From assembly GCF_026745355.1 (NCBI RefSeq), contig NC_079206.1, positions 14,741,389 through 14,805,388 on the forward strand: DNA of 64,000 nt. The letters are read 5' to 3'. This DNA is from Beta vulgaris subsp. vulgaris. Its lineage: Eukaryota; Streptophyta; Magnoliopsida; Caryophyllales; Amaranthaceae. This document shows, piece by piece, positions 1 to 13,659 of the stretch; positions within the stretch are counted from its first letter, which is position 1, and the number at the start of each line of letters is the position of its first letter. The notes under the pieces are model-generated. The model saw nothing but the letters and a program-made list of their open reading frames with translations, was not told where the DNA came from and did not search any database. A program made the position numbers and the translations under genes.

Positions 1-1174
1 TCTGAAAATTCTTTTCACAACATGAAGGTGAGTAGTACGAGGAGCATGCATAAACTGAGACACCATATTAACAGCATAAGCAATATCAGGACGAGTCATA
101 GTTAAGTACTGCAATGCACCAACCATACTACGATAATCTGTGGGATCAGCAAGAAGTTCTCCATCAAGCAGAGACAATGTTACTCTAGAGACAACAGAGT
201 GGTAACTGGTTTAAAGTATGAAGATGGAATTTACATAGTAAATCAGAGACATACTTATGTTGAGACAAAAATAAACCAGAGGGAGTACGCACAACCTGCA
301 CACCTAAGAAATAATGAAGATCCCCTAAATCCTTCATAGCAAACTGAGAAGAAAGAACATAAATGAATTTGGCAACAAGAGGAGGACTACTACCAGTAAG
401 GACAATGTCATCACCATATAAGAGAAGAATAATGAGATGACCACTATATTTCAGAGTAAACATAGAAGTCACAACTGTGCACTTGAAACCAATAGATAAA
501 AGGAAGTTGCTAAACCGAGAAAACCAAGCTCAGGAGCTTGTTTCAAACCATAAATGGACTTACGAAGACGACAAATATGAGTAGGTTTAGATGAATGAAT
601 AAAACCAGGAGGTTGACGCATATAAACCTCTTCATTGAGAAAACCCTGAAGAAATGCATTTTTGACATCTAACTGACGAATAGACCATTTAAGAGAAACA
701 ACAATAGTGAGCACCAAACGAACAGTAGTAGCTAGGTTTAACAACAGGACTAAAGGTTTCAAAGTAATCAATACCTGCCTGCTGGTGCTTGCCAAAAACC
801 ACAAGTCTGGCTTTGAACCGCTCCACAGAACCATCAGAATGATATTTGATCCTGTAAACCCACTTACAACCAAGTAAATTCTTATCATAGTTGCAAGGTA
901 CCAACTCCCATGTGTCATTTTTAATTAAAGCATTATATTCATCTAACATAGCTTGACGCCAACGTGAGTCTTTAGAAGCTTGTTTAAAATTAGTAGGTTC
1001 AGACTCTACAATTTCAGTGTTTAAGTTCATTAAGACACGAGGCTTAGACACACCATCTTTAAGGCGAGTAACCATAGGATGTTTATTAGAAATAATGGGA
1101 GAGAGGAGATCAGGGGAAGACGAGATGGGAGAGGCCGAAGCAGGCGAGGCTGTCGCAGGGGACGGACTCGGCAC
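1..1174 (-). pseudogene. copia reverse transcriptase region (broken, partial)
   Basis: Three overlapping minus-strand frames give one copia RT. The first is the N-terminal part with WRQAMLDEYNAL and WELVP (about 1100-900). The second is the [10 protein letters not shown] palm motif with YMRQPPGF and IYGLKQ (about 690-530). The third is the catalytic box with LGDLHYFLG (about 430-300). The catalytic box reads YGDD where plant copia elements usually have YVDD. The last bases correspond to the connection toward RNase H. At least two frameshifts separate these blocks. Its role in an intact element is to copy genomic RNA to DNA. Confidence 0.9.
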
Positions 1175-2532
1175 AGACGCGGGAGATGGGGGGGACGGCC
1201 CAGCGAGGCGTGTCTCAGCAGGGGTCGAGGCAAGAGACGCGGCCTGGCGATGGCTGGACGCCCAGCAGCCGAGATCGAAGGGCCGGGAGTGACGGGAGGA
1301 GAGCCAGCTGTGGCTGGGTTCTTGACACTAGCCGACGCGGGGGACGGGGAGACCACGACAGGCGAGAGAAAAGACTGAGCAGCAGAGCTGCGGGCGAGAG
1401 GGGCAGACAACACTGGTGGAGGCACAGACACCAAGGGACGGGCGACGTTAGTAACAGGCCAGTCAGCAGATAAGACACTAGGAGACGTGTAAGGCTCATG
1501 AGACGCAGGACCAACCAAAGCACGATACGGAAATTTATGTTCATGAAAAAGAACATGACGACTAGTGTAGACTTTCTTGGTAGTAGGATCAAAACAGCGA
1601 TACCCTTTATATTCCAATGCATATCCAATAAAAACACAGGTTTTCGATTTAGGTTGCAGTTTGTGATTTTTAGAATCCAGAAATTAAGGAAAGCATTCAC
1701 AACCAAATGTTTTCAAAAAATGGTAGGAAGGTGGACGATGAAATAATTTTTCAAAAGGAGAAACACCCCCTAAAACCGAGCTGGGTAATCTATTGATAGT
1801 GTAAGTGGCAGTATAGATGCATCAACCCAAAATTCCGCAGGAAAGTCAGAATGAATAATCATAGTACGAGCCATTTCAATGATATGACGATGTTTGCGTT
1901 CTGCAACACCGTTTTGAGCTGGAGTGTGGGACAAGATTTTTGAAAATTATACCATTGTTAGAAAAATGTTGAAGAAGAGGAGAATTGTCAAATTCCCTTC
2001 CTCCATCACTTTGAAATATTTTAATTTTGCAATTAAAAAGATTTTCAACCATCTTTTGAAACATAAGGAATTTAGAATAAACTTCCGATTTTCGACGTAA
2101 TAGATAAATCCAAGAATAGCGTGAAAAATCATCAACAAACACAACATAATATCGAAATAATTGATTTGACAAAACAGGAGATTGCCAAAGATCACTATGA
2201 ATTTTATATAATGGATATGTAGAAAGATGTTCAACAGAATCAAAAGGTAAACGATGTATCTTTCCTAGCTTACAACCGACACAGTCATCATGAAATTTAG
2301 AGGTACATGTGATATATTTATTGGAACATAATTTTCCTATAATGCTAGAAGATGTATGACCTAGGCGAGCATGCCACACGTCACCCGACTCTTTAATGGC
2401 TAGGAAAGCAGGAACTGAAGGCTCAGAAGGGACAATGTTGGGCTGTAGAGGGTAGACACCTTGTTTACTGGTTCCCTGAAGCAGAACTTCCCCCGTGATC
2501 TGGTCCTTAACGTAAACATATTTTTTTATCAA
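1175..2532 (-). pseudogene. copia integrase and Pro/Ser-rich linker (broken)
   Basis: The minus frame from 2532 reads a gag-pre-integrase block (WHARLGHTSS) and a zinc-binding HHCC region (CVGCKLGKIHRLPF). It continues into the integrase core with FVDDFSRYSWIY (first Asp) and FQSDGGREF (second Asp). A frameshift near 1930 precedes the NGVAERKHRH stretch that carries the catalytic Glu. A further frame from 1617 gives the copia integrase C-terminal motif YKGYRCFDP, then a GC-rich linker of mostly Pro, Ser, Arg and Leu leading to RT. The breaks make this non-functional as written. Confidence 0.88.
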
Positions 2533-4282
2533 AACTCACAACACAATCATTTTCATGACACAACTTGTTAACTGATAATAAATTATGTTTTAAACTCGGG
2601 ACATGACAGACAGATGATAAACGGAGGGGACGACTTGTAGTTTTTAAAGTTAATTGTCCAGTACTTTTAATTGGGAGTAAGGTACCATTTCCAACTACAA
2701 CAGAACTAGACCCAGTATAAGGAGTTTTAATAGAGAACGTACCATCCTGAGGAGTCATGTGAGAAGCAGCTCCCGAATCCGAGTACCAGACTGAGTCATT
2801 AGCTTCACCCCCAACAGACAGTGCAGCTAAGGCTCGAGTGACACTTTCTGAGGAGGAGGGAACAAAGCTATGATTGAAACGCTGGGGACAGTAGGCAGCT
2901 TGGTGACCTGGAAACCAACACAAACCACATGTATAGGAAGTAGGGGTAGAGGTAACATTGTTACTAGGTGATGAATTACTCCCTGCAGACGACAAATTAT
3001 TAGTAATAGAATCTAGGCAAGGCATACTATAAGATGACAAGTCAGAAAATTTACTTATACCATTTGATCGTCCCCGATTACCATTATTGTTGTTGTTGTT
3101 TCCTCCAGGGCCACGATTATTATTATTTCCACCATTATTATTCCGAGCATTGTTGCCCCCACGAGTATTATTACCACCTCTGTTTCTGTTATTCCTTCCC
3201 CGATTTCTCCCTCCAGAATTATTCTGGGAGGAGGAATTTGAACCAGTACCAGTAGATTTAACGGCAAGTAATGCATGATGGGATGAGGGATCAGATGCAT
3301 CCTTAGAATTGAGCAATCGTTGTTCATGCAGTAGCAACTTGGGACGCAAATCATCAAAACTAATTGGGAATGGATAATGCAGAAGGGTAGTAACTATATG
3401 AGCGTACTCAGAATCACGATCCAATCCAAACAGGGTATACTGCACTAAATCCTGGTTCGACACAGGACATTGAATAGCAGCAAGGGAATCAGCAATCACC
3501 TTAATCTCACGTAAATACCCATCCATCGTCTGGGAAGCAGTCTTTTTAAGACGAGTTAGTCTTCCCTTTAATTCCATTGATCTGGCCATACTAGCATGCA
3601 TAAATCGAGATTGTAATCTAGTCCAAATTTCGACAGAGGTAGACAAATCATGTACATCCACAAAAACATCCCTAGATAAGGTGGCAAAAATCCAAGATTT
3701 GATTTGTTGATCCACACGTAAATATTCATAAAATTGAGGATTAGAAACAGGTATGCCATGATCATCAATAACAGTCGCAGGAGGAATAGAAATAGTGCCT
3801 TCAACCATACCAAATAATTGATGCGAAAGAATTAAACAAGTAATTTGGGTTTTCCACAATAAATAATCTTCAGGAGAAGAAAGAGTAATTGTTACCAAAT
3901 TGTTGAGATTAGGGGCAGAGATCTGTGGGAGGGCAAAAAGGGAAGCCGAATGAGAGGAGGAAAACATGGGCATGGCGGAGAAGTGGGGTCCGACGGAGGT
4001 GGCCGAAAATCCGGGCGAGAACCGAGGGGTAGTCCGTGAGGAGGACGGAGTAGAGGATCCCGGAAGCACCGACAATGAGACGCCGGGACCGAAGCTCGAA
4101 AACCCAGCAGTCGAGGAGGGCTGCGGGAAAGATTGCAAAAAAGGCTGGCCGGCATATAGAGCGGTGGTGGCCGGTGTTCCGAATAGCGGCGCCGATGAGA
4201 TGATCGGGGTGGCAGGAGAGTAGGCCTACGGTGGCTGCGTGTGAGCAGTAGCAGGGGAGGAAGTCTGAGAAGGAAACTCCAT
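2507..4282 (-). pseudogene. copia gag and aspartic protease
   Basis: The natural start is the ATG at 4282 (MEFPSQTSS). Codon 19 is TAG, after which the frame is open for over 540 codons to 2507. It contains a UBN2-type gag core (WTRLQSRFMHASMARSMELK), an Asn/Gly/Arg-rich low-complexity stretch (about 3250-3060), a CCHC zinc knuckle (CGLCWFPGHQAAYC, CX2CX4HX4C), and a retropepsin site WYSDSGAASHMT. The frame ends in the gag-pre-integrase region (LLSVNKLC), where a frameshift leads to the integrase frame. It would package element RNA and process the polyprotein; the early stop and the frameshift argue against function. Confidence 0.9.
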
Positions 4283-4555: not shown

Positions 4556-4922
4556 TGTTAAAGGTTAATCTAGAAAAATCTAGATGTGCAATGAAAAATA
4601 TAGTGTAAAGTGTAAAATAATCAAGTGATGATGTTTCTAGAAATATCTTGTAAAAATCAAGATATTAGACAAATAAAGAAAAATCTAGAAACTAGTATAC
4701 AACAACTATAAATATGTTGTGTGCATGAGTTAAATGGGAGCCAAACAAGTGAGCTCTACACAAGATATTAGGAAAGGTAGAAACAAAGGGTTTTATCAAG
4801 GTGAATGAGAGACATGAGCTCTCACAAACACACCTGTATAGTTAATATCAATGAAAATACAATTTTATGATACTATTCGGGTCCATCAAAACATCCGTGT
4901 GCACCACATATTCTATATATCA
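4556..4922 (+). repeat. 5' LTR of the small copia-like element
   Basis: It begins TGTTAAAGG and ends TATATATCA directly before the primer site. It aligns to the LTR at 13408 over most of its length, sharing for example AAAAATCTAGAAACTAG and ACTATAAATATGTTGTG. The TATA box (about 4708-4716) is flanked by ACAAC and GTTGT, which could pair across it. A second shared stretch is AAGATATTAGGAAAGGTAG. Confidence 0.88.
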
Positions 4923-4936
4923 TGGTATCAGAGCCG
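4923..4936 (+). promoter_or_regulatory. primer binding site (initiator-Met tRNA)
   Basis: TGGTATCAGAGCCG follows the LTR end directly. Its first 13 bases are the complement of the 3' end of plant initiator-Met tRNA, the usual copia primer. Confidence 0.9.
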
Positions 4937-5212
4937 CAAAAGTGATTACAAAGAAGATCGAAGGCCCGAGAGATGGAAATCAAGCTTGTAAGAAGAGACT
5001 TGGATGACACAATCAAGGTAAGTATCTTATAAAAAATTTCAAAGAAGATAATTCAAAAGGTATAGAGATGAAATAAAAGAGTTTTAAGAGAAGACAAAAA
5101 TAGAAGATATATTTGGAAATTAAAATATGATGATGGAGAAAAAAAAAAGGATGAGATAACTTTTGAGAAATGTTGAAGATTAGAATATAGGATAAGTTGG
5201 ATGGTTGATGAC
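4937..5212 (+). other. 5' internal part of the small copia-like element
   Basis: No gag frame is present. A short ATG frame at about 4974 (MEIKLVRRDLDDTIK) runs into AAGGTAAGT, a good splice-donor match, and stops soon after. The rest is purine-rich. The stretch ends GTTGATGAC at 5204-5212, which is the left arm of the first stem-loop of the array that continues at 12814. Confidence 0.6.
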
Positions 5213-6587
5213 TGATAAGTCATTTTTATATATAGTTTTTAGGTGCATTTAGGTTGCATTTTAGAGCATTTAGTTTCATATTTAGGTTCATTGTTGCATT
5301 ATATTCTTAAGTTATGCTTTTCTATTCCTATTCGGTATGTTTTCTTGTTTTTGATGAATTTCAGGCATTGATAACGTATTTTGAGTATGATTAGCTAAGT
5401 TTGAGGATTAGGAGCACTTGGAAAGAAGCTACAATGCATAAGGATCGTATGGATATGTCATAGTACGAGTTTGAGCAAAAACGAAGCGGAAAATCATTAG
5501 AAGAAATGTGAAAAAAGAGTCATGTCTACTCTTCTGATCATAACTTTTGATGTACTTCTTAAAATCGAGTAATTCCAGCTGATTTGGAAACTAGACTTGA
5601 AGAGCTTTCCAACGATAGGTGGCACGCCCCGAGGAGACTTCTAGTCAAGGAGTTATGCTTTCCGGAAGATTACACTGTTTCTGCTGGAATCTGCCACGCG
5701 TACGCGCAGATGACTAATCCGCCTATTAATGATTTAATTAAGACTTTCCTTATCTTGTAAATTACTTTCCTAGTCATATTAGGTTAAAAGATATTATTTA
5801 GATAGGTTTTTATTCTTTTTCTCTCTCCTCTCCCCTTTTCACGTTATTTTATTATTTTTCTTAGTTTAGTTTTCTCTTCCTCTTTTTCTCTCTAGTTTCT
5901 AGTTGTAAATCATAGTTTTTGTTCTTCTTCATTAATCTATGATTTTTATTAGTTTCTTTTCTTCTTGATTTCTTTGATTATGCTTTTCTTGGTAGATTTA
6001 GATTTCATTCTTTATTTCATGATAGAGTAGTTTTTATTTCTAGGGTTTGGGAATCCATGTTTATATGTTATGATTTGATTTATATTTATTCATGGTTTGA
6101 TTAATTATTGATTTCTCTAATTGATTAGTGTTTTATTGTTAATCTTGCAATCTGATCACTTGTCTGATTAAATATTGTTAATATCGAGTTATAGATCGAG
6201 AGATAGTACTCTTTAGAGGCTTACCTACAATTAGCAAATCTGATTATGTTGAGCGACCGTACTAGCATATGTTGATTTGAGAGCGTTAATGTCTGACCAA
6301 GGATTAACCTGTGCTCTAGATATCTGATTGATTGAACTATTGATGGTATTTTGATAGATTATAGTTATAAACATGGTGAACCATTACCCTAGATCCTTTT
6401 TAGTTTGATTTTCTTTATTTATTAGTTTAGAACCTTAATTCACATACTTCTGATCTTGTTTAGTTTCTCTATACCTTATAAACTAGATTAAACGACCATC
6501 TCTCTGTGGATTCGACCCTACTTACCCTACTACATTGTTAGAAGGTTTTGCAGGAATTATTTTTGACGGGTGTACGACAACCTATCA
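5213..6587 (+). repeat. 5' LTR of the young element (1375 bp)
   Basis: It is bounded by the ATGAC target duplication on the left and the Asp primer site on the right. It matches 11468-12813 nearly base for base. Differences are a few substitutions plus many single-base losses in the 3' copy. Confidence 0.95.
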
Positions 6588-6592
6588 AATTT

Positions 6593-6610
6593 TGGCGCCG
6601 TTGCCGGGGA
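6593..6610 (+). promoter_or_regulatory. primer binding site (Asp tRNA)
   Basis: TGGCGCCGTTGCCGGGGA is an exact 18-base complement of the 3' end of plant tRNA-Asp including CCA. It starts five bases after the LTR. Confidence 0.92.
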
Positions 6611-6735
6611 GACGGTATAGTTTTATTTAGTTTTTATTGTTGGTGAAATTAAACTGTGTATATATTTATTTATATTTTTTTCTTTCTTTTTGTGATTTTT
6701 TTTTTGTTTTTTTCTTCTCTGTTTTAGTGTGTTGT

Positions 6736-7719
6736 ATGGAGTCGTATAATCATAGTTCAGATGGGGATGTTTTTTCTAATTATCAAGGGCAATATGATTA
6801 TTCTGGGTATTATAATGCTAATGATTATGTTTATGATGCATCATATGATTGTCAAAATTTACAAAATCTGTGCATGAATTCTTATGAATATTCTCATGAC
6901 CCTAATGAGTCTTATGTGCCTGATTATACCCAATGTTATCAACCTGAAGAGAATAATTATTTTCAACTTGAAACATCAGAGCGTCATGAACTTTTTAATA
7001 TGATGAAAGAGTATATTGCTAAACAACATGAAGATTTAAATGAATTAGCTAATGATTACCAAAACATAGCGAAATCTATTGAATTTCTTGTTGTGCAGCA
7101 ATCTACTAACCAACAGGTGATACTTGATGATACTGATATTAGTGTTGAGAATTATAATTCGGAAGAGAAAGGTATTGATTTGACTCACGATAATTTGGTA
7201 GAAGGTAAGGGTGTAATTGGTAGAGTTGGTAGTTTGTGTCTCTCTGTTGACGAATCTATAGTTGAAAGTGAAGTGTCTGACACTTTTACGATAAACTTTT
7301 CATCTGCATATGAGTCTAAAGTTGAGAGTGAAATAGTGCATGAGTCTTTGTCGGCTCCATCTGATACTGTTTTTGAATCTCATGTTCCATTCTCTCAAAA
7401 ACTTGGCATTATTCCTCCATTTCCTATATTATATCCTCCATCGTTTCTTCTTTCTCCTCTTTTGAATGACTCACATAATAACATAAATAATGTACATTTA
7501 GTTTCTTTTCCTTCTTTTGAGTCATGTAAAAAGACTAACGATTTTTATTTTTCTTCTTCTTGTAAATATAATTTTTCCTTTGATTTTTCTTTTTGTAGTT
7601 TTAGTAATTATTTAGTACTAATTTTTTTCATTTTCGCTTTTCACTCTTATATAATATGCTCTGAGATGTCTGCAGGAACATATGATAAGCTTCTTAGAAC
7701 ATTGAACTATTATGAGTGA
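6736..7719 (+). CDS. orphan ORF of the young LTR element, unknown function
   Basis: The start is taken at ATG 6736 (MESYNHSSDGD), because the open frame upstream is only T-rich leader. The protein is 327 aa. The N-terminal 80 residues are rich in Tyr, Asn and Asp (repeated YDYSGYYNANDY-like runs). The middle is a predicted helical segment around LFNMMKEYIAKQHEDLNELA. An acidic part repeats VESEV/VESEI. Near the C-terminus is a hydrophobic stretch (about residues 285-312, LVLIFFIFAFHSYII) that could span a membrane. It sits in the gag position right after the primer site but shows no gag core, zinc knuckle or protease. I do not recognise it; an env-like or element-specific accessory role is only a guess. 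Confidence 0.7.
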   Translation: MESYNHSSDGDVFSNYQGQYDYSGYYNANDYVYDASYDCQNLQNLCMNSYEYSHDPNESYVPDYTQCYQPEENNYFQLETSERHELFNMMKEYIAKQHEDLNELANDYQNIAKSIEFLVVQQSTNQQVILDDTDISVENYNSEEKGIDLTHDNLVEGKGVIGRVGSLCLSVDESIVESEVSDTFTINFSSAYESKVESEIVHESLSAPSDTVFESHVPFSQKLGIIPPFPILYPPSFLLSPLLNDSHNNINNVHLVSFPSFESCKKTNDFYFSSSCKYNFSFDFSFCSFSNYLVLIFFIFAFHSYIICSEMSAGTYDKLLRTLNYYE

Positions 7720-10700
7720 TCTACTAATCTTGAAAAGTCATGCAAGACATTAAAGTGCGCTTCTCGGGAGGCAACCCGAACATTAACTTATTTTCTCTTT
7801 TCTTTTCTTTACTTTTTATTACGATTTTTGTCTTTGTTTCTTCCTTTTTGAGTGATTTTGCTGACTTTAGGGTGTTTTGATTTTTTTTTTTTTTGTAGGT
7901 GGAACGAGTTTAAAAAAAAAAAAAAAAAAAAAACGAACGAACGAAGAAGAAAGCGACAGGAATTCGCCCACGCCATTCTTGTTTCTCAGGCACCATCTCC
8001 CAATACCTTCTCACGCATCCTTACTTCACTCCATCGCTGACCATCACAGAAAACCGGAGCACCAACATCATCGGCGCACCATCATCACCCGTCGCCGGCG
8101 TCAGTCCGCGCGCACTCCTCTCCCTCCGCGCCTTCTTCTTCTCCCTCTTACCGCACCACTCACCGACAACCAACACCGCGCACTACCACCGGATTATCGC
8201 CGGCATCCAAACCATCCGTCCATCACCAGGCCCCCTCGCACTCCTCTTGAGCCCACACCAGCCGGCCTCCTGATCGCCTCCCATACGCCGCTAGTTGCCA
8301 CCCATCCCACCACCGAACCACCATCAACCTGCGCACCACCATTATCACAGCTTCCGTCTTGTTCGCACCCCAGCCAACCTTCCCCCTGTTTTCTTCTCTC
8401 TCTTCGTTTCTTTAACATGGTTGATAAACGCAGCCTCACTTTACTAACGCAACCTTAAAAAAATCCCAAAAAATCCTTATTATCATATTCTTTCTAAAAA
8501 AACCCTTTCTCTCTCTAAAAATATTCTCTCCTCCTCTCTAACTGTTAGATATAAAAAAAAAACTTCATTGAAGATCTACAAATTTTAATTTGATATTCAA
8601 TGGACCATAATTTTGACCCAATCGAATTTCAATCTGATGTAAGTTGTGAATTTTTTTTCGTAATTATGATTCAAGTTGTGAATTTTTTTTTCATAATTAT
8701 GATTCGTAATGCATGATTAGTCTGTTTCGTGTAGACTTACATGAAACAGTAACAACTACTTCATCCAAGTTATATGAAATAGGATAAACCATTTCATCCT
8801 AGTTATATGAAACAGTATTATTAATTTTGTTCAATTCACATGAAGCAGTAAGAGCTATTCCATTCAATTATACAACAAGCCAATTTATGTCATACTAGTT
8901 TTTGGCTAATTATACAACAAATGCAAGTATACAAACTGTTATAGATGGCGTTTGCTTGCAAAATCATACACCAATGCTTTACGCCATATATTTCATTAGG
9001 AAACCGATGATACACCTCGCCTCATTCATACAGTTGGTACAATAATTCCACTCATCATTATTTGATTTTGTGATGGGCCCATAACTAACAGGATTATAAC
9101 CAAAAAAGTAGAAGTATTTAATCAACACTTTGATCTCCACATCAATTTATCAAGATCTTTCTTGAAACCTAAATTAATTTTAGAATGGAACAGCAATAAC
9201 AGTTACCAGTAAAACAATTACCAAGATCAAACGCAAGGCTTCGTCTATTACCCCCTCAGAAGAAATGTATGGAGAAAGAGAGAGAACTGAGAATTATGGA
9301 GAGATGAGAGAGAATTATGAAAAATGGAAATCTCCCCAATTTGTTCAAATCTATGAAAATCTAAAGAGGAAAGTGAGGTTAAAATCTATGAAAATCTGAA
9401 GAGGACGAAGAGGAAGATGGAGAGAGTAGTTAGAGAGAGAAATGAGTTTTGAGGCAAAGGGTATTTTAGATATTTTGTAGGGTTGTATTAGTAAAGTGAG
9501 GTTGTATTTAGCAACCCCCTTCTTTAATCTGTTTCTTTTATTTTTCTTCTTTTTCTTTTCTGTTTCCTTTCTTTCTTTTCTTTTTTTTTTTTTTTTTTCT
9601 TCTCGAATTCTTATTATCTTTAGCTTACTTTTCTGTTTCATTATTTTTAATTTCATTTTTCATTTTTTTATCGATATTTGTTGTAGGTTTCTCTCACATA
9701 GGCCCTAAATTGCTTCAAGCTAGCTTTGGCGAAGAATTATGACATGATCATTGAGCATATTTGACTCTTCTCCTCAATTAATTGGGTAGTAAGCATTTAT
9801 TTTCACTTGAACATGTTATTGATGTTCGTTTTGAATTTTCGCTTGAATTTTTGTTTTGATGCCATCTTGTTGAGAATTCTTTTTGAGCACACTACTTGAA
9901 TTATTGAATTGTCGGGATTTGTGTGTGGTTTTTGTGGTGTTGTGATTCTGGGTGGGTGATTTTAGTGTTGGATGATTGTCGGGGTTGGTTTTGGTTCCTT
10001 CTCTAATCTGGTTTATGCAGTGAGGACACTGCAAATTCTAGCTTGGGGGAGGAATATTCTATCTTTTATTGCTTTTTAGTGTAGATTTCATTGCTTTCAT
10101 AGGATGTTGCACGGTTTGTACTGCTTATTAGGAGTGGGAGTTTACGTGTAACCAAAAAAATTGTACTGCTTTCTTAGTTGCATTAACATATTTCATCTCA
10201 TTTTAGTTGCATCTATGGGACTACTGCTAAGACTTTTTGAGAACCTTGTTGATATTTTACTACATTTGTTAAGTGTCACTCATCTTGTTCATGATACTTC
10301 ATAGCACGATTGTTTCGCAACTGATTGTTTGTGGTAAGATTGTGGATCTCTCTCTGACTCGATTTAACATTACTATGCAGACACCTTAACCTAAGTGAGC
10401 TTTTGTGCCGATAAACTGACGTATCTGTGTCAGTTATGTTCTTTCATGTGTGATTAGTTCCTCGTTGTTGCATTGATCTTGACTTTGACTTGGTACTCCT
10501 TGATATTTGATAGTGCATATATTTTGATATGATTGAGGCGTTTCATTTGATGATCTTAGCTCCAGAGTTATTTTTATTTTCATATTATCCTTCCTCTAGC
10601 CGCGCTGAGCCTTTTCTGACTTTGTTTGATTGATACCTACATTACAAGCCATTGGCCTCATTTGATTCTTGTCCCAAGCCTAGCTTGGGGGAGCGAGTAT

Positions 10701-11452
10701 TAGTTTTGGTTTGGTTTGTATTGAATTGAAGTGCTCTATTTGTGGTTAGAAGGATGAAAAATATGTTTAGTGAGCTTTGAAATTGAATTGAAATAAAAAA
10801 AAAAAAAAAAAAAGTGAAAAATGAAATGAAAAAAAAAGAAAAGAAAAAGAGTTGTGAATAAAGTGAAATAAAAAGGGTTATGATTGAATTTCTTGAGTGA
10901 AAAAGGTTGTTGATTATATTTGGAGATTGTTGGTTGTTGCACGAGTTGTGATTTCTTGGTCATGTTTTCAGTTATATGATGCTCCCCCTTCTTGGTTTTT
11001 CCACCACAATTCCCAAATTATTTCCATACCTTTAACCTCAGCCCATTACAACCCTTAAAAGTCCTCTTGATCATTATGTATTGATTGTTGAGTATTAAGT
11101 GAGTCAAAAAGTCAAAGTTAAAGAGTATTTGCTTCATCTGAGTCGATTGTTTAGGTTGAGAGTCATTTTTAACCCTTAAACACATGAGAGATTTGAGTGC
11201 ACATAACTATAGTGAGGTCTGTCAGGTTTGTTAAATCCAGCTTGGGGAGATGGTTTGTGGTTGATTGGAGAGTCGATTGCGATACATGACATGCTATGCG
11301 GCTTTGTTCGAGCTTGTTTCGATGCTTGGCTTATGTAGTGATTATATCTCTTGTGTTTTCAATTGAGTGTTTAGCCCTGTTGTAGTCCTATATTGTAGGT
11401 TGTCTAACTTTTCCGATGTCTATGTCTTATTGCTTGAGGACAAGCAATGGTT
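7720..11452 (+). other. non-coding interior of the young LTR element
   Basis: No retroviral-type domain is visible in any frame. Notable content: the CTCGGGAGGCAACCCGA motif near 7762-7778, often seen in such derivatives; a GC-rich, Pro/His/Arg-coding stretch at about 7940-8450 that looks like a captured host gene fragment; a four-unit tandem repeat at 8741; poly-A and poly-T runs near 7912, 9585 and 10798; and three purine-tract-like copies of AGCTTGGGGGAG before the real one (10038, 10681, 11238). The frames through the homopolymer runs are low-complexity and not credible genes. Confidence 0.6.
8741..8871 (+). repeat. 33-bp tandem repeat, four units
   Basis: Units start at 8741, 8774, 8807 and 8840. 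Each opens with ATGAAACAG or a close variant and ends with CATCCAAGTTAT or a variant; the last unit is 32 bases. The units are diverged. Confidence 0.75.
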
Positions 11453-11467
11453 TAGCTTGGGGGAGTT
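11453..11467 (+). promoter_or_regulatory. polypurine tract of the young element
   Basis: TAGCTTGGGGGAG immediately precedes the 3' LTR at 11468, the position where plus-strand DNA synthesis is primed. Confidence 0.85.
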
Positions 11468-12813
11468 TGATAAGTCATTTTATATATAGTTTTTAGGTGC
11501 ATTTAGGTTGCATTTTAGAGCATTTAGTTTCATATTTAGGTTCATTGTTGCATTATATTCTTAAGTTATGCTTTTCTATTCCTATTCGGTATGTTTTCTT
11601 GTTTTTGATGAATTTCAGGCATTGATAACGTATTTGGAGTATGATTAGCTAAGCTTGAGGATTAGGAGCACTTGGAAAGAAGCTACAATGCATAAGGATC
11701 GTATGGATATGTCATAGTACGAGTTTGAGCAAAAACGAAGCGGAAAATCATTAGAAGAAATGTGAAAAAGAGTCATGTCTACTCTTCTGATCATAACTTT
11801 TGATGTACTTCTTAAAATCGAGTAATTCCAGCTGATTTGGAAACTAGACTTGAAGAGCTTTCCAACGATAGGTGGCACGCCCCGAGGAGACTTCTAGTCA
11901 AGGAGTTATGCTTTCGGAAGATTGCACTGTTTCTGCTGGAATCTGCCACGCGTACGCGGATCACTAATCCGCCTATTAATGATTTATTTAAGACTTTCCT
12001 TATCTTGTAAATTACTTTCCTAGTCATATTAGGTTAAATATTATTTAGATAGAGTTTTATTCTTTTTCTCTCTCCTCCTCCCCTTTCACGTTATTTTATT
12101 ATTCTAGTTTAGTTTTCTCTTCCTCTTTTTCTCTCTAGTTTTAGTTGTAAACCTAGTTTTTTCTTCTTCATTAATCATGATTTTATTAGTTTCTTTCTCT
12201 TGATTTCTTTGATTATCTTTTCTTGTAGATTTAGATTTCATTCTTTATTTCATGATAGAGTAGTTTTTATTTCTAGGGTTTGGGAATCCATGTTTATATG
12301 TTATGATTTGATTTATATTTATTCATGGTTTGATTAATTATTGATTTCTCTAATTGATTAGTGTTTTATTGTTAATCTTGCAATCTGATCATTGTCTGAT
12401 TAAATATTGTTAATATCGAGTATAGATCGAGAGATAGTACTCTTTAGAGGCTTACCTACAATTAGCAAATCTGATTATGTTGAGCGACCGTACTAGCATA
12501 TGTTGATTTGAGAGCTTAATTCTGACCAAGGATTAACCTGTGCTCTAGATATCTGATTGATTGAACTATTGATGTATTTTGATAGATTATAGTTATAAAC
12601 ATGGTGAACCATTACCCTAGATCCTTTTTAGTTTGATTTTCTTTATTTATTAGTTTAGAACTTAATTCACATATTCTGATCTTGTTTAGTTTCTCTATAC
12701 CTTATAAACTAGATTAAACGACCATCTCTCTGTGGATTCGACCCTACTTACCCTACTACATTGTTAGAAGGTTTTGCAGGAATTATTTTTGACGGGTGTA
12801 CGACAGCCTATCA
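11468..12813 (+). repeat. 3' LTR of the young element (1346 bp)
   Basis: It starts TGATAAG after the purine tract and ends CCTATCA before the target duplicate ATGAC. It is 29 bases shorter than the 5' LTR, mostly through scattered one-base losses (for example in T and A runs near 11480 and 11765) rather than one block. Confidence 0.95.
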
Positions 12814-13341
12814 ATGACATGAACATCAACAAATGAAATTAACATTGGAAGAAAAGGAAAGATTAAAAAAAATAACGGAGAATATTGGTGACAAGAGCAC
12901 CAATAATTGGGAAAAAGAAGAAAAAGCAAAGTGAAAAGAAAAAGGAGAAGAAGAAAAAAAAAGTTCAAGAGAAAGATTTTGGAGTTTGCTAATGACATGG
13001 GCATTAGTAGAGATGATTGGTGACATGAGCATCAATGAAAGAATGAAATTGCATAAAGACATGTGAAGAAGAAAAATGAAAATGTTCAGATAGGGGGAGT
13101 AAGTTGGTAACATGGGTACCAACACAAAACATTAAAGATCAAGAAAATGTGATGAAGAAACAAAGGTATGATGGTTGGTAACAAGGGTACCACCACAAAA
13201 AAGTGATAATCAACAATATGGAAAGAAGAAAATGGAAGATCAAGGTGTTTGGTGACCTAGGCACCAACGAGGACGAGGATGAAAACGAGAAGAACATCTC
13301 AAGAATCAAGTTTGGAGATAGTTGATGACAAGTGTATCAAC
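12814..13341 (+). other. array of eight stem-loops with compensating arms
   Basis: This is purine-rich internal DNA of the small copia-like element. Eight short dyads share a 7-base loop. Loop positions and sequences: 12819-12823 (ACATGAA, left arm at 5204-5210 before the insertion), 12891 ACAAGAG, 12995 ACATGGG, 13023 ACATGAG, 13110 ACATGGG, 13181 ACAAGGG, 13255 ACCTAGG, 13328 ACAAGTG. Arms: GTTGATG/CATCAAC, ATTGGTG/CACCAAT, GCTAATG/CATTAGT, ATTGGTG/CATCAAT, GTTGGTA/TACCAAC, GTTGGTA/TACCACC, TTGGTG/CACCAA, GTTGATG/TATCAAC. Only two of about 56 pairs are mismatched, and three are G-U with G in the left arm. Copies are often about 71-75 bases apart. No protein frame explains it. Confidence 0.85.
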
Positions 13342-13407
13342 AAGACTTTGAAGATACCTTTGGAAAAAGCATGATGAAGTACAAGAATTTTCAAGATTAA
13401 AGGGGAG

Positions 13408-13659
13408 TGTTAGAGATTAATCTAGAAAATTCTAAATGTTTGATGAAAAATGTGAGAAAAATATCTATTGTGTATCTAGAAGTATCTTGTGAAAAATTTA
13501 AGATATTTGTACTTGAAAGAAAAATCTAGAAACTAGGATACAACAACTATAAATATGTTGTGCACATGAGTTAAATGGGAGACAAACAAGTGAGCTACAC
13601 ACAAGATATTAGGAAAGGTAGAAACAAAGGGTTCTACCAAGGTGAATGAGAGACATGAG
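13408..13659 (+). repeat. 3' LTR of the small copia-like element, truncated
   Basis: It starts TGTTAGAG after the purine tract. Similarity to the 5' LTR stops at GAGACATGAG (13659); the expected final 110 or so bases, including the CA end, are missing. Confidence 0.85.

Follow-up and report, generated by a model that had tools for sequence, protein, structure and literature searches.

Same-Loop Hairpin Arrays in Non-Coding and Gag-Only LTR Elements of Sugar Beet: A Putative Multi-Site RNA Recognition Signal

The Host Element and Its Nested Insertion

The window, by which we mean the whole stretch of DNA analyzed, spans 64,000 nucleotides of Beta vulgaris subsp. vulgaris (NC_079206.1, positions 14,741,389 to 14,805,388 of the forward strand). 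It holds an array of hairpins in a short non-coding copia-type LTR element, directly upstream of the polypurine tract (PPT). The parts of this host element, and of a second element nested within it, are listed below in window coordinates.

4556..4922, plus strand: 5′ LTR of the host (outer) copia-type element, TGTTAAAG...TATCA, followed by the primer binding site (PBS) TGGTATCAGAGC at 4923
4923..4937, plus strand: PBS, TGGTATCAGAGCCGC
5208..5212, plus strand: left ATGAC of the target-site duplication that flanks the nested element
5213..12813, no strand assigned: nested LTR element of 7601 bp, with LTRs of about 1.35 kb and ends TGATAAG...CCTATCA (direct repeats, duplication)
12814..12818, plus strand: right ATGAC of the target-site duplication that flanks the nested element
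13384..13433, plus strand: long stem with most of the PPT in its loop (arms 13384-13400 and 13417-13433, 17 nt, 94% complementary)
13399..13407, plus strand: PPT, AAAGGGGAG
13408..13659, plus strand: 3′ LTR, cut off right behind the loop of the LTR hairpin

The host element has the organization of an LTR retrotransposon, with TG...CA LTRs, a PBS behind the 5′ LTR, and a PPT ahead of the 3′ LTR; complete LTR pairs come from other copies, the 3′ LTR of the window copy being truncated. A 170-nt stretch of the 5′ LTR is 89% alike to 13490-13659. The copia assignment is based on the PBS, which we take to be of the initiator-Met tRNA type, and on relatives with Pfam Retrotran_gag_2, not on coding sequence of the window element itself. 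Leaving out the nested element, the internal region measures about 880 bp (about 290 + 590 nt), and no sense-strand ORF of 90 codons was found in it in the window copy. The nested element sits within the first hairpin, H1, with an ATGAC duplication on either side, so its insertion split that hairpin.

The long stem at 13384-13433 pairs sequence upstream of the PPT with the start of U3. Among six copies examined, similar stems occur in L061, L083, L085, and L086 and not in L062. An inverted repeat around the PPT is also described for Sireviruses in the excerpt of PMC2829016. According to the same excerpt, most of their repeated motifs have a conserved CGG-CCG core, in contrast to the variable arms and near-constant loop of the beet hairpins.

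Three further observations concern the surroundings of the array. A 362-residue ORF lies at 6631-7719 inside the nested element. Remains of another copia element occupy 185-4225 on the minus strand, with gag-, integrase-, and RT-like ORFs assigned by eye, and end near 4556. In the leader of the host element, about 40 nt past an ATG, AAGGTAAGT at 5015-5023 resembles a splice donor; BARE1 of barley makes a Gag-only RNA by splicing, as stated in the excerpt of PMC3735527.

The Hairpins of the Window Copy

All hairpins of the window copy lie on the plus strand:

5204..5210, plus strand: H1, left arm GTTGATG, parted from the right arm by the nested element
12817..12830, plus strand: H1, loop ACATGAA and right arm CATCAAC
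12883..12905, plus strand: H2, TATTGGTG-ACAAGAG-CACCAATA
12987..13009, plus strand: H3, TGCTAATG-ACATGGG-CATTAGTA, seventh pair G-U
13016..13036, plus strand: H4, ATTGGTG-ACATGAG-CATCAAT, third pair G-U
13103..13123, plus strand: H5, GTTGGTA-ACATGGG-TACCAAC
13174..13194, plus strand: H6, GTTGGTA-ACAAGGG-TACCACC, sixth pair a U-C mismatch
13249..13267, plus strand: H7, TTGGTG-ACCTAGG-CACCAA
13321..13341, plus strand: H8, GTTGATG-ACAAGTG-TATCAAC, loop-closing pair G-U
4806..4824, plus strand: LTR hairpin, TGAGAG-ACATGAG-CTCTCA, the array loop on unrelated arms

A preliminary description of this DNA, made from the sequence alone, had claimed eight dyads with complementary arms of 6-8 bases and loops that, with few exceptions, have the form ACAWGRG. 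Seven of them stand as intact units with a 7-base loop at 12883-13341, and the eighth, which comes first in the array, is split by the nested element. The start given for the array, 12814, is the first base of the ATGAC duplication, and H1 is perfect only across the insertion: its rejoined flanks read GTTGATG-ACATGAA-CATCAAC, a perfect seven-pair hairpin. The arm length holds with two reservations, as H6 has five unbroken pairs only, with its U-C outside them, and H7 has T-C at the seventh pair. The loop fits ACAWGRG exactly in five of the eight, and the loops of H1 (ACATGAA), H7 (ACCTAGG), and H8 (ACAAGTG) deviate. Changes on both sides of the first, third, fourth, sixth, and seventh pairs can be read from the sequence just as had been reported, and the three wobble pairs (H3, H4, and H8) all have G in the left arm and T in the right.

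The units share a core, TTGRTG, and one repeat, D3, extends over 58 nt at 79%. Between H7 and H8, the window (13299-13315) and many copies (L002-L028) show a weaker dyad, TTTCAAG-AATCAAG-TTTGGAG, three of whose pairs are G-U; it was left out of the array count because its 7-base loop differs.

The LTR hairpin at 4806..4824 has a predicted pairing of 0.97 in the context of the 5′ leader. It lies downstream of a TATA-like box in the window and should therefore be part of the transcript. Other non-coding subfamilies place the unchanged loop on the arms TGTGAG/CTCACA or GGTGAG/CTCACC. An LTR hairpin that combines the array loop with unrelated arms in non-coding subfamilies is newly reported here.

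Chance Expectation and Predicted Folding

The 588-nt array (12820-13407) contains seven dyads that combine a 7-base loop with arms of 6 or longer, against a mean of 1.05 and a maximum of 7 in 1000 dinucleotide shuffles. Among these seven, one (13002-13022) overlaps and is off pattern, and H6 is not counted. Given that the shuffles also reach 7 and that one of the dyads is off pattern, the dyad count alone is no more than suggestive. When only ACAWGRG loops on arms of at least 5 were counted, the array contained five hairpins, compared with a shuffle mean of 0.003 and a maximum of 1. Throughout the 64-kb window, this exact combination occurs six times on the plus strand, always within the host element, and not once on the minus strand.

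Predicted folding lends the array mixed support. Relative to its own shuffles, the array folds with z -3.00 on the plus strand and z -3.56 on the minus strand; the minus strand thus does at least as well, which counts against reading the array as RNA. In the window copy, the plus strand is better: predicted pairing is 0.97, 0.92, 0.91, 0.94, 0.66, 0.03, and 0.75, against 0.97, 0.30, 0.05, 0.84, 0.22, 0.12, and 0.37 on the minus strand. In the array context of L086, the youngest copy found, plus-strand predicted pairing stays below 0.13 for three of the eight hairpins, again counting against the RNA reading, and the mean over all eight is 0.57 on the plus strand and 0.72 on the minus strand. 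The minimum-energy fold suggests a C2-G7 pair within the loop.

Covariation Across Genomic Copies

One search of the sugar beet genome, in which 40 of 320 candidates were scored, yielded 67 matches, and a search with the LTR and leader, with 40 of 252 scored, yielded 46. The array is fully or partly present in 36 genomic copies, of which we aligned 35; L005 was set aside as a segmental duplicate of L003 with common flanks. One or more hairpins are lost in L023-L025, L027, and L028. Among 27 other copies with sequence at H1, the stem is perfect in 18, has one changed pair in six and two changed pairs in two, and contains a one-base gap in one. A 21-letter hairpin pattern with at most 2 mismatches matches 620 genome sites, compared with 8 for the reversed pattern. 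In L022, a long GAA repeat enlarges the spacer between H2 and H3, and the hairpins keep their place.

Over 58 pairs in the 35 aligned copies, 95.8% of 1824 cells are standard pairs. The number of pairs changed on both sides is 10, against a shuffle mean of 3.6 (1 of 500 shuffles as high), and the number of cells so changed is 26, against 4.8 (0 of 500 as high). When the partner was slid by 1-3 columns, both-sided changes numbered 0-5 pairs and 0-7 cells, and 28-61% of cells were paired. Both-sided changes therefore exceed the shuffled and the slid controls, the usual mark of a structured RNA, with the proviso that both controls leave the relatedness of the copies in and that independent compensations are few, since the hairpin units have a common core. 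Compensation is visible in L021 and L026, where H1 GTTGATG/CATCAAC is aligned with GTTAGTG/CACTAAC and H2 TATTGGTG/CACCAATA with TGCTAATG/CATTAGCA. The closing pair of H6 is A-U in 29 copies, G-C in 4, and G-U in 1. One other feature of H6 counts against RNA structure, namely a single pair mismatched in 26 of 34 cells.

The kinds of imperfect pairs carry information on the strand. Non-Watson-Crick states common to at least two copies comprise 13 G-U and 3 A-C (binomial p 0.021), whereas those unique to one copy, which we take as post-insertion decay because dead copies decay without selection, comprise 15 of each; a Fisher comparison of shared with unique states gives p 0.058. An excess of G-U among shared states together with an even split among unique ones is as expected if pairing in plus-strand RNA was selected before insertion. 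The claim that RNA structure is maintained in the transcript of the element is supported by the 10 both-changed pairs and by this excess of shared G-U states.

In 29 copies, deviation from the majority base is 4.0% in arms, 6.1% in spacers, and 6.2% in loops; taken base by base, the rate in arms is 0.5-0.6 times that in spacers for all four bases. Loops vary like spacers and so, within these 29 copies taken alone, give no support for loop constraint; a CpG in the H7 loop and post-insertion decay may contribute to the loop variation.

Two outcomes had been named in the preliminary description as speaking against RNA structure: arms that vary without compensation, and dyads that prove to be one recently duplicated unit. 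The arms as a whole do not behave in the former way, yet 76 of the 1824 cells are unpaired (26 of them at the one H6 pair) against 26 changed on both sides. Such uncompensated changes are expected because the copies are dead. As to the latter, the dyads are probably old paralogues rather than the product of a single recent duplication, with the reservation that they share the TTGRTG core.

A Survey Starting from the Loop

To free the result from selection by arms, we collected every exact ACAWGRG on both strands of 215,282 bp of merged sugar beet DNA. Arms of at least 5 flank 202 of the 307 sites. Control motifs gave far fewer: 1 of 76 for the reversed motif, 0 of 76 for the complement, and 0 of 54, 0 of 98, 0 of 53, and 3 of 127 for scrambles. 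Near-variant motifs also serve as loops with arms of at least 5 (34 of 211, 11 of 27, and 16 of 72). Reading the 307 sites on the opposite strand still gives 164 with such arms, so the strand signal depends on a modest G-U excess.

Units picked by their loop, from clusters in which at least two neighbors had arms, supplied 97 distinct arm pairs. At positions 1-6, 86.6% of pairs are standard, compared with 64.6% when right arms were re-dealt (maximum 69.9% in 2000 re-deals), and these positions contain 44 G-U and 20 A-C. Among 288 perfect dyads in hairpin clusters, 206 have a 7-base loop, with the composition A.99, C.93, A.98, T.71/A.25 (and C in 3%), G.88, A.72/G.24, and G.84; the clusters are defined partly by the loop, and these frequencies are therefore not independent.

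Gag-Only and gag-pol Relatives

L061 (= L065) is an LTR element in which a broken copia-type gag is followed by the hairpin array and then a PPT. Its first gag piece matches Pfam Retrotran_gag_2 (E 1e-22); its second scores below cut-off for the Pfam zinc knuckle, which counts against assigning the loop to Gag. A genome search with the first gag piece had 150 scored of 3699 candidates. Elements carrying gag, without pol, ahead of the array are L061 (= L065), L066-L070, and L080. The PPT pattern matched in L061/L065, L066, L067, and L070 and did not match in L068, L069, or L080. Where the ORF reaches its end (L066-L069 and L080), the gag stop lies 2 to 34 nt ahead of the first hairpin. Two CCHC motifs are present in the ORFs of L067, L068, L069, and L080 and one in L066, and none was matched in L070. 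With a 301-residue gag ORF, an LTR pair, and no pol, L067 qualifies as a TR-GAG element; the gag ORF is broken in several other gag-only relatives, and the window element, lacking gag, does not qualify. Among 100 listed sites of the 21-letter pattern (of 620), and with 52 of the 150 gag hits entered, 10 sites lie 760-974 bp past a gag-hit start. The suggestion that the array replaces coding sequence is borne out in part: in the gag-only relatives, it starts directly behind the gag stop, where pol would be.

Other relatives provide a contrast. In a second gag-only clade (L074-L077 and L079; 48-56% identity), no array was found within the stretches read, which counts against the Gag reading. Its L074-L077 members have ORFs of 284-305 residues ending in ...LF or ...IF, with repeats suggesting an LTR soon past the stop, and a single CCHC-like motif falls within the final 60 residues, its first C being lost in L076. 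Nor was an array found in the 5′ and 3′ parts read of three gag-pol relatives (L071/L072, L073/L082, and L078/L081; 53-54%). A complete gag-pol partner carrying the array was thus sought in those parts of three of many gag-pol copies and was not among them. The array placed directly after the gag stop in gag-only (TR-GAG) relatives, together with a second gag-only clade and three gag-pol relatives without it in the stretches read, is newly reported.

Amaranthus (about 305 residues, 74% identity) and, in shorter forms, quinoa (278 and 286 residues, 73% and 66% identity) have Gag ORFs with the same terminal residues, so the packaging system proposed below may be old in Amaranthaceae. In sugar beet, LTR pairs at 20 loci tested are 84-100% alike, and elements with LTRs 97-100% alike retain the array. 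The LTRs of L086 are identical over 485 bp, implying recent movement of at least one copy; its eight array hairpins have core stems of 5-9 pairs without mismatch, three of them with a G-U pair.

A Putative Signal Read by Gag

A near-constant loop on a free stem, present in many copies, placed after gag, and restricted, among the loci read, to one gag clade and its non-coding companions, argues for a multi-site protein signal, and most economically for one read by Gag. We accordingly regard the array as a putative multi-site RNA recognition signal, most likely for the Gag of gag-only elements and yielding selective packaging, a reading to which we give about an even chance. Each hairpin would display a 7-base loop, A-C-A-N-G-R-G, on a stem of 5-9 pairs whose sequence is largely free, with the stem acting mainly as a holder. 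A protein would bind the loops, several copies per RNA molecule; its likeliest identity is the Gag of the gag-only relatives, with two CCHC zinc-knuckle motifs, and many Gag molecules on one RNA could lead to selective packaging. The wholly non-coding elements, with the array and an extra LTR hairpin, would then be parasites of this Gag, and RT and integrase would be supplied by a third, complete element. The packaging or protein-binding role put forward at the outset is consistent with these findings.

Retroviral proteins offer a partial precedent, in that NC zinc knuckles bind exposed guanosines of hairpin loops according to the excerpt of PMC7599994, and the array loop has two near-constant G. 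The same excerpt reports for HIV-1 that replacing the NC-binding GGAG loop of a psi hairpin hardly altered packaging, which counts against the proposal. A further point against Gag is that the LTR hairpin was not found in the gag-only elements examined. More tentatively, and with the odds somewhat against it, we suggest a modular packaging code in which gag-only and non-coding elements have in common about 5-10 same-loop hairpins read by Gag, creating layered parasites (non-coding on gag donor on enzyme donor).

Alternative Readings

The structural evidence from the loop-first survey, covariation, and G-U bias would serve equally well if the hairpins were RNA sites for a host RNA-binding protein, acting in export, stability, localization, or translation control, instead of for Gag. 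Retention of the array in wholly non-coding elements, and its position after gag in a would-be 3′ untranslated region, also suit a host protein. A general host factor would not explain why the three gag-pol relatives and the second gag-only clade lack the array at the loci read, and to date the array accompanies a single Gag clade; we consider such a host protein unlikely, though well worth keeping in mind. It is improbable that the loops act by kissing, with the self-complementary CAUG of the commonest loops dimerizing or compacting the RNA. Position 4 is indeed T in 71% of the 206 perfect dyads, and the excerpt of PMC5454406 describes Ty1 RNA dimerization modeled with kissing loops. Position 4 is, however, A in 25% and C in 3%, loops that are not self-complementary (ACAAGRG in H2 and H6, and ACACGAG) occupy particular hairpins in many copies, and the conserved A1 and G7 fall outside CAUG.

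That the dyads are functionless, short, decaying remnants spread by tandem duplication or template switching is very improbable. Their TTGRTG core and the 58-nt D3 repeat at 79% would be explained, as would the tandem copies in which whole elements occur; against this, stems covary and, base by base, vary 0.5-0.6 times as much as spacers, the loop also sits on the unrelated LTR arms, and the array persists in elements with LTRs 97-100% alike. Least probable of all is action as DNA, through palindromic transcription-factor sites or cruciforms. The palindromic repeated motifs of Sirevirus LTRs are taken as likely transcription activators in the excerpt of PMC2829016, and the minus strand of the array pairs well too. 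A DNA site would not call for variable arms around a near-constant asymmetric loop, and the mismatches that copies have in common take the G-U form, in preference to A-C, on the transcript strand; in addition, the LTR hairpin of the window lies downstream of the TATA-like box, and listed hairpins are oriented as the element. Having weighed the kissing-loop, duplication, and DNA-site readings, we set all three below a signal read by Gag.

Relation to Known Systems

Both kinds of element, the non-coding LTR element and TR-GAG, are known, while the RNA array is undescribed as far as we searched the literature; those searches turned up no LTR element with a same-loop hairpin array. None of 4227 Rfam covariance models matches in the window, and at a loose threshold the best hit to the array (E 0.61) reaches 16.6 bits, where the gathering score is 50, and is not credible. 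TRIMs are elements with very short LTRs and a short internal region. Across our copies, LTRs measure about 345-500 bp and the internal region about 500-890 bp, to be set against the size limits of the TRIM definition. The TRIMs and LARD of beet in BeetRepeats (60 TRIMs, one LARD; PMC11603912) are likewise non-autonomous LTR elements, and their description, in the excerpt and compared by text alone, names no hairpin array. Like L061 (= L065) and L066-L070, TR-GAGs have LTRs, a PBS, a PPT, and a single gag region. They are able to transpose, and the excerpt of their description makes no mention of a hairpin array, the words "hairpin" and "stem" being absent from it (PMC8704663); the window element differs in lacking even gag.

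A functional likeness is the BARE1/BARE2 pair of barley, in which gag-less BARE2 is packaged in BARE1-Gag particles and dimerization and packaging signals are conserved (excerpt of PMC3735527), although binding, packaging, and parasitism in the beet elements are our inference. The same excerpt describes no same-loop hairpin array, and BARE2 may still encode the rest of the ORF. The coat protein of STNV binds stem-loops during assembly, is loop-specific, and is indifferent to the stem (excerpt of PMC3593212). STNV differs in being a virus with a true coat protein and another loop (ACAA), and we claim no homology. The same applies to the virus MS2, whose dispersed packaging stem-loops are likewise reported to be bound by coat protein during assembly.

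To our knowledge, how non-coding LTR elements in plants are chosen for packaging by the Gag of another element is poorly known. Little is known of packaged RNA outside BARE, as the excerpt of PMC3735527 notes. With the present array, a defined, repeated, and testable RNA motif occurs in one genome together with its candidate reader, the roughly 300-residue Gag that has two knuckle motifs. The same genome provides natural controls, in that some gag-only elements carry the array and others, like the gag-pol elements, lack it in the stretches read. Should Gag bind the loop, plant retroelements would have their own equivalent of the dispersed packaging signals known from small RNA viruses.

Elements of these kinds also form series in the genome. 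At C12:27640474-27660536 (L079), gag elements follow one another at about 1.45-kb spacing, without the hairpin array in the pieces read. A gag element series at C6:13807554-13816029 (L080) has about 1.6-kb spacing and the hairpin array in the pieces read. At C2:34673860-34714759 (a range that includes L063), non-coding hairpin elements stand head to tail over about 41 kb, at about 1.3-kb spacing where listed. Elsewhere in the window, the gene at 17603-18526 matches a Beta vulgaris protein (100% over 97%).
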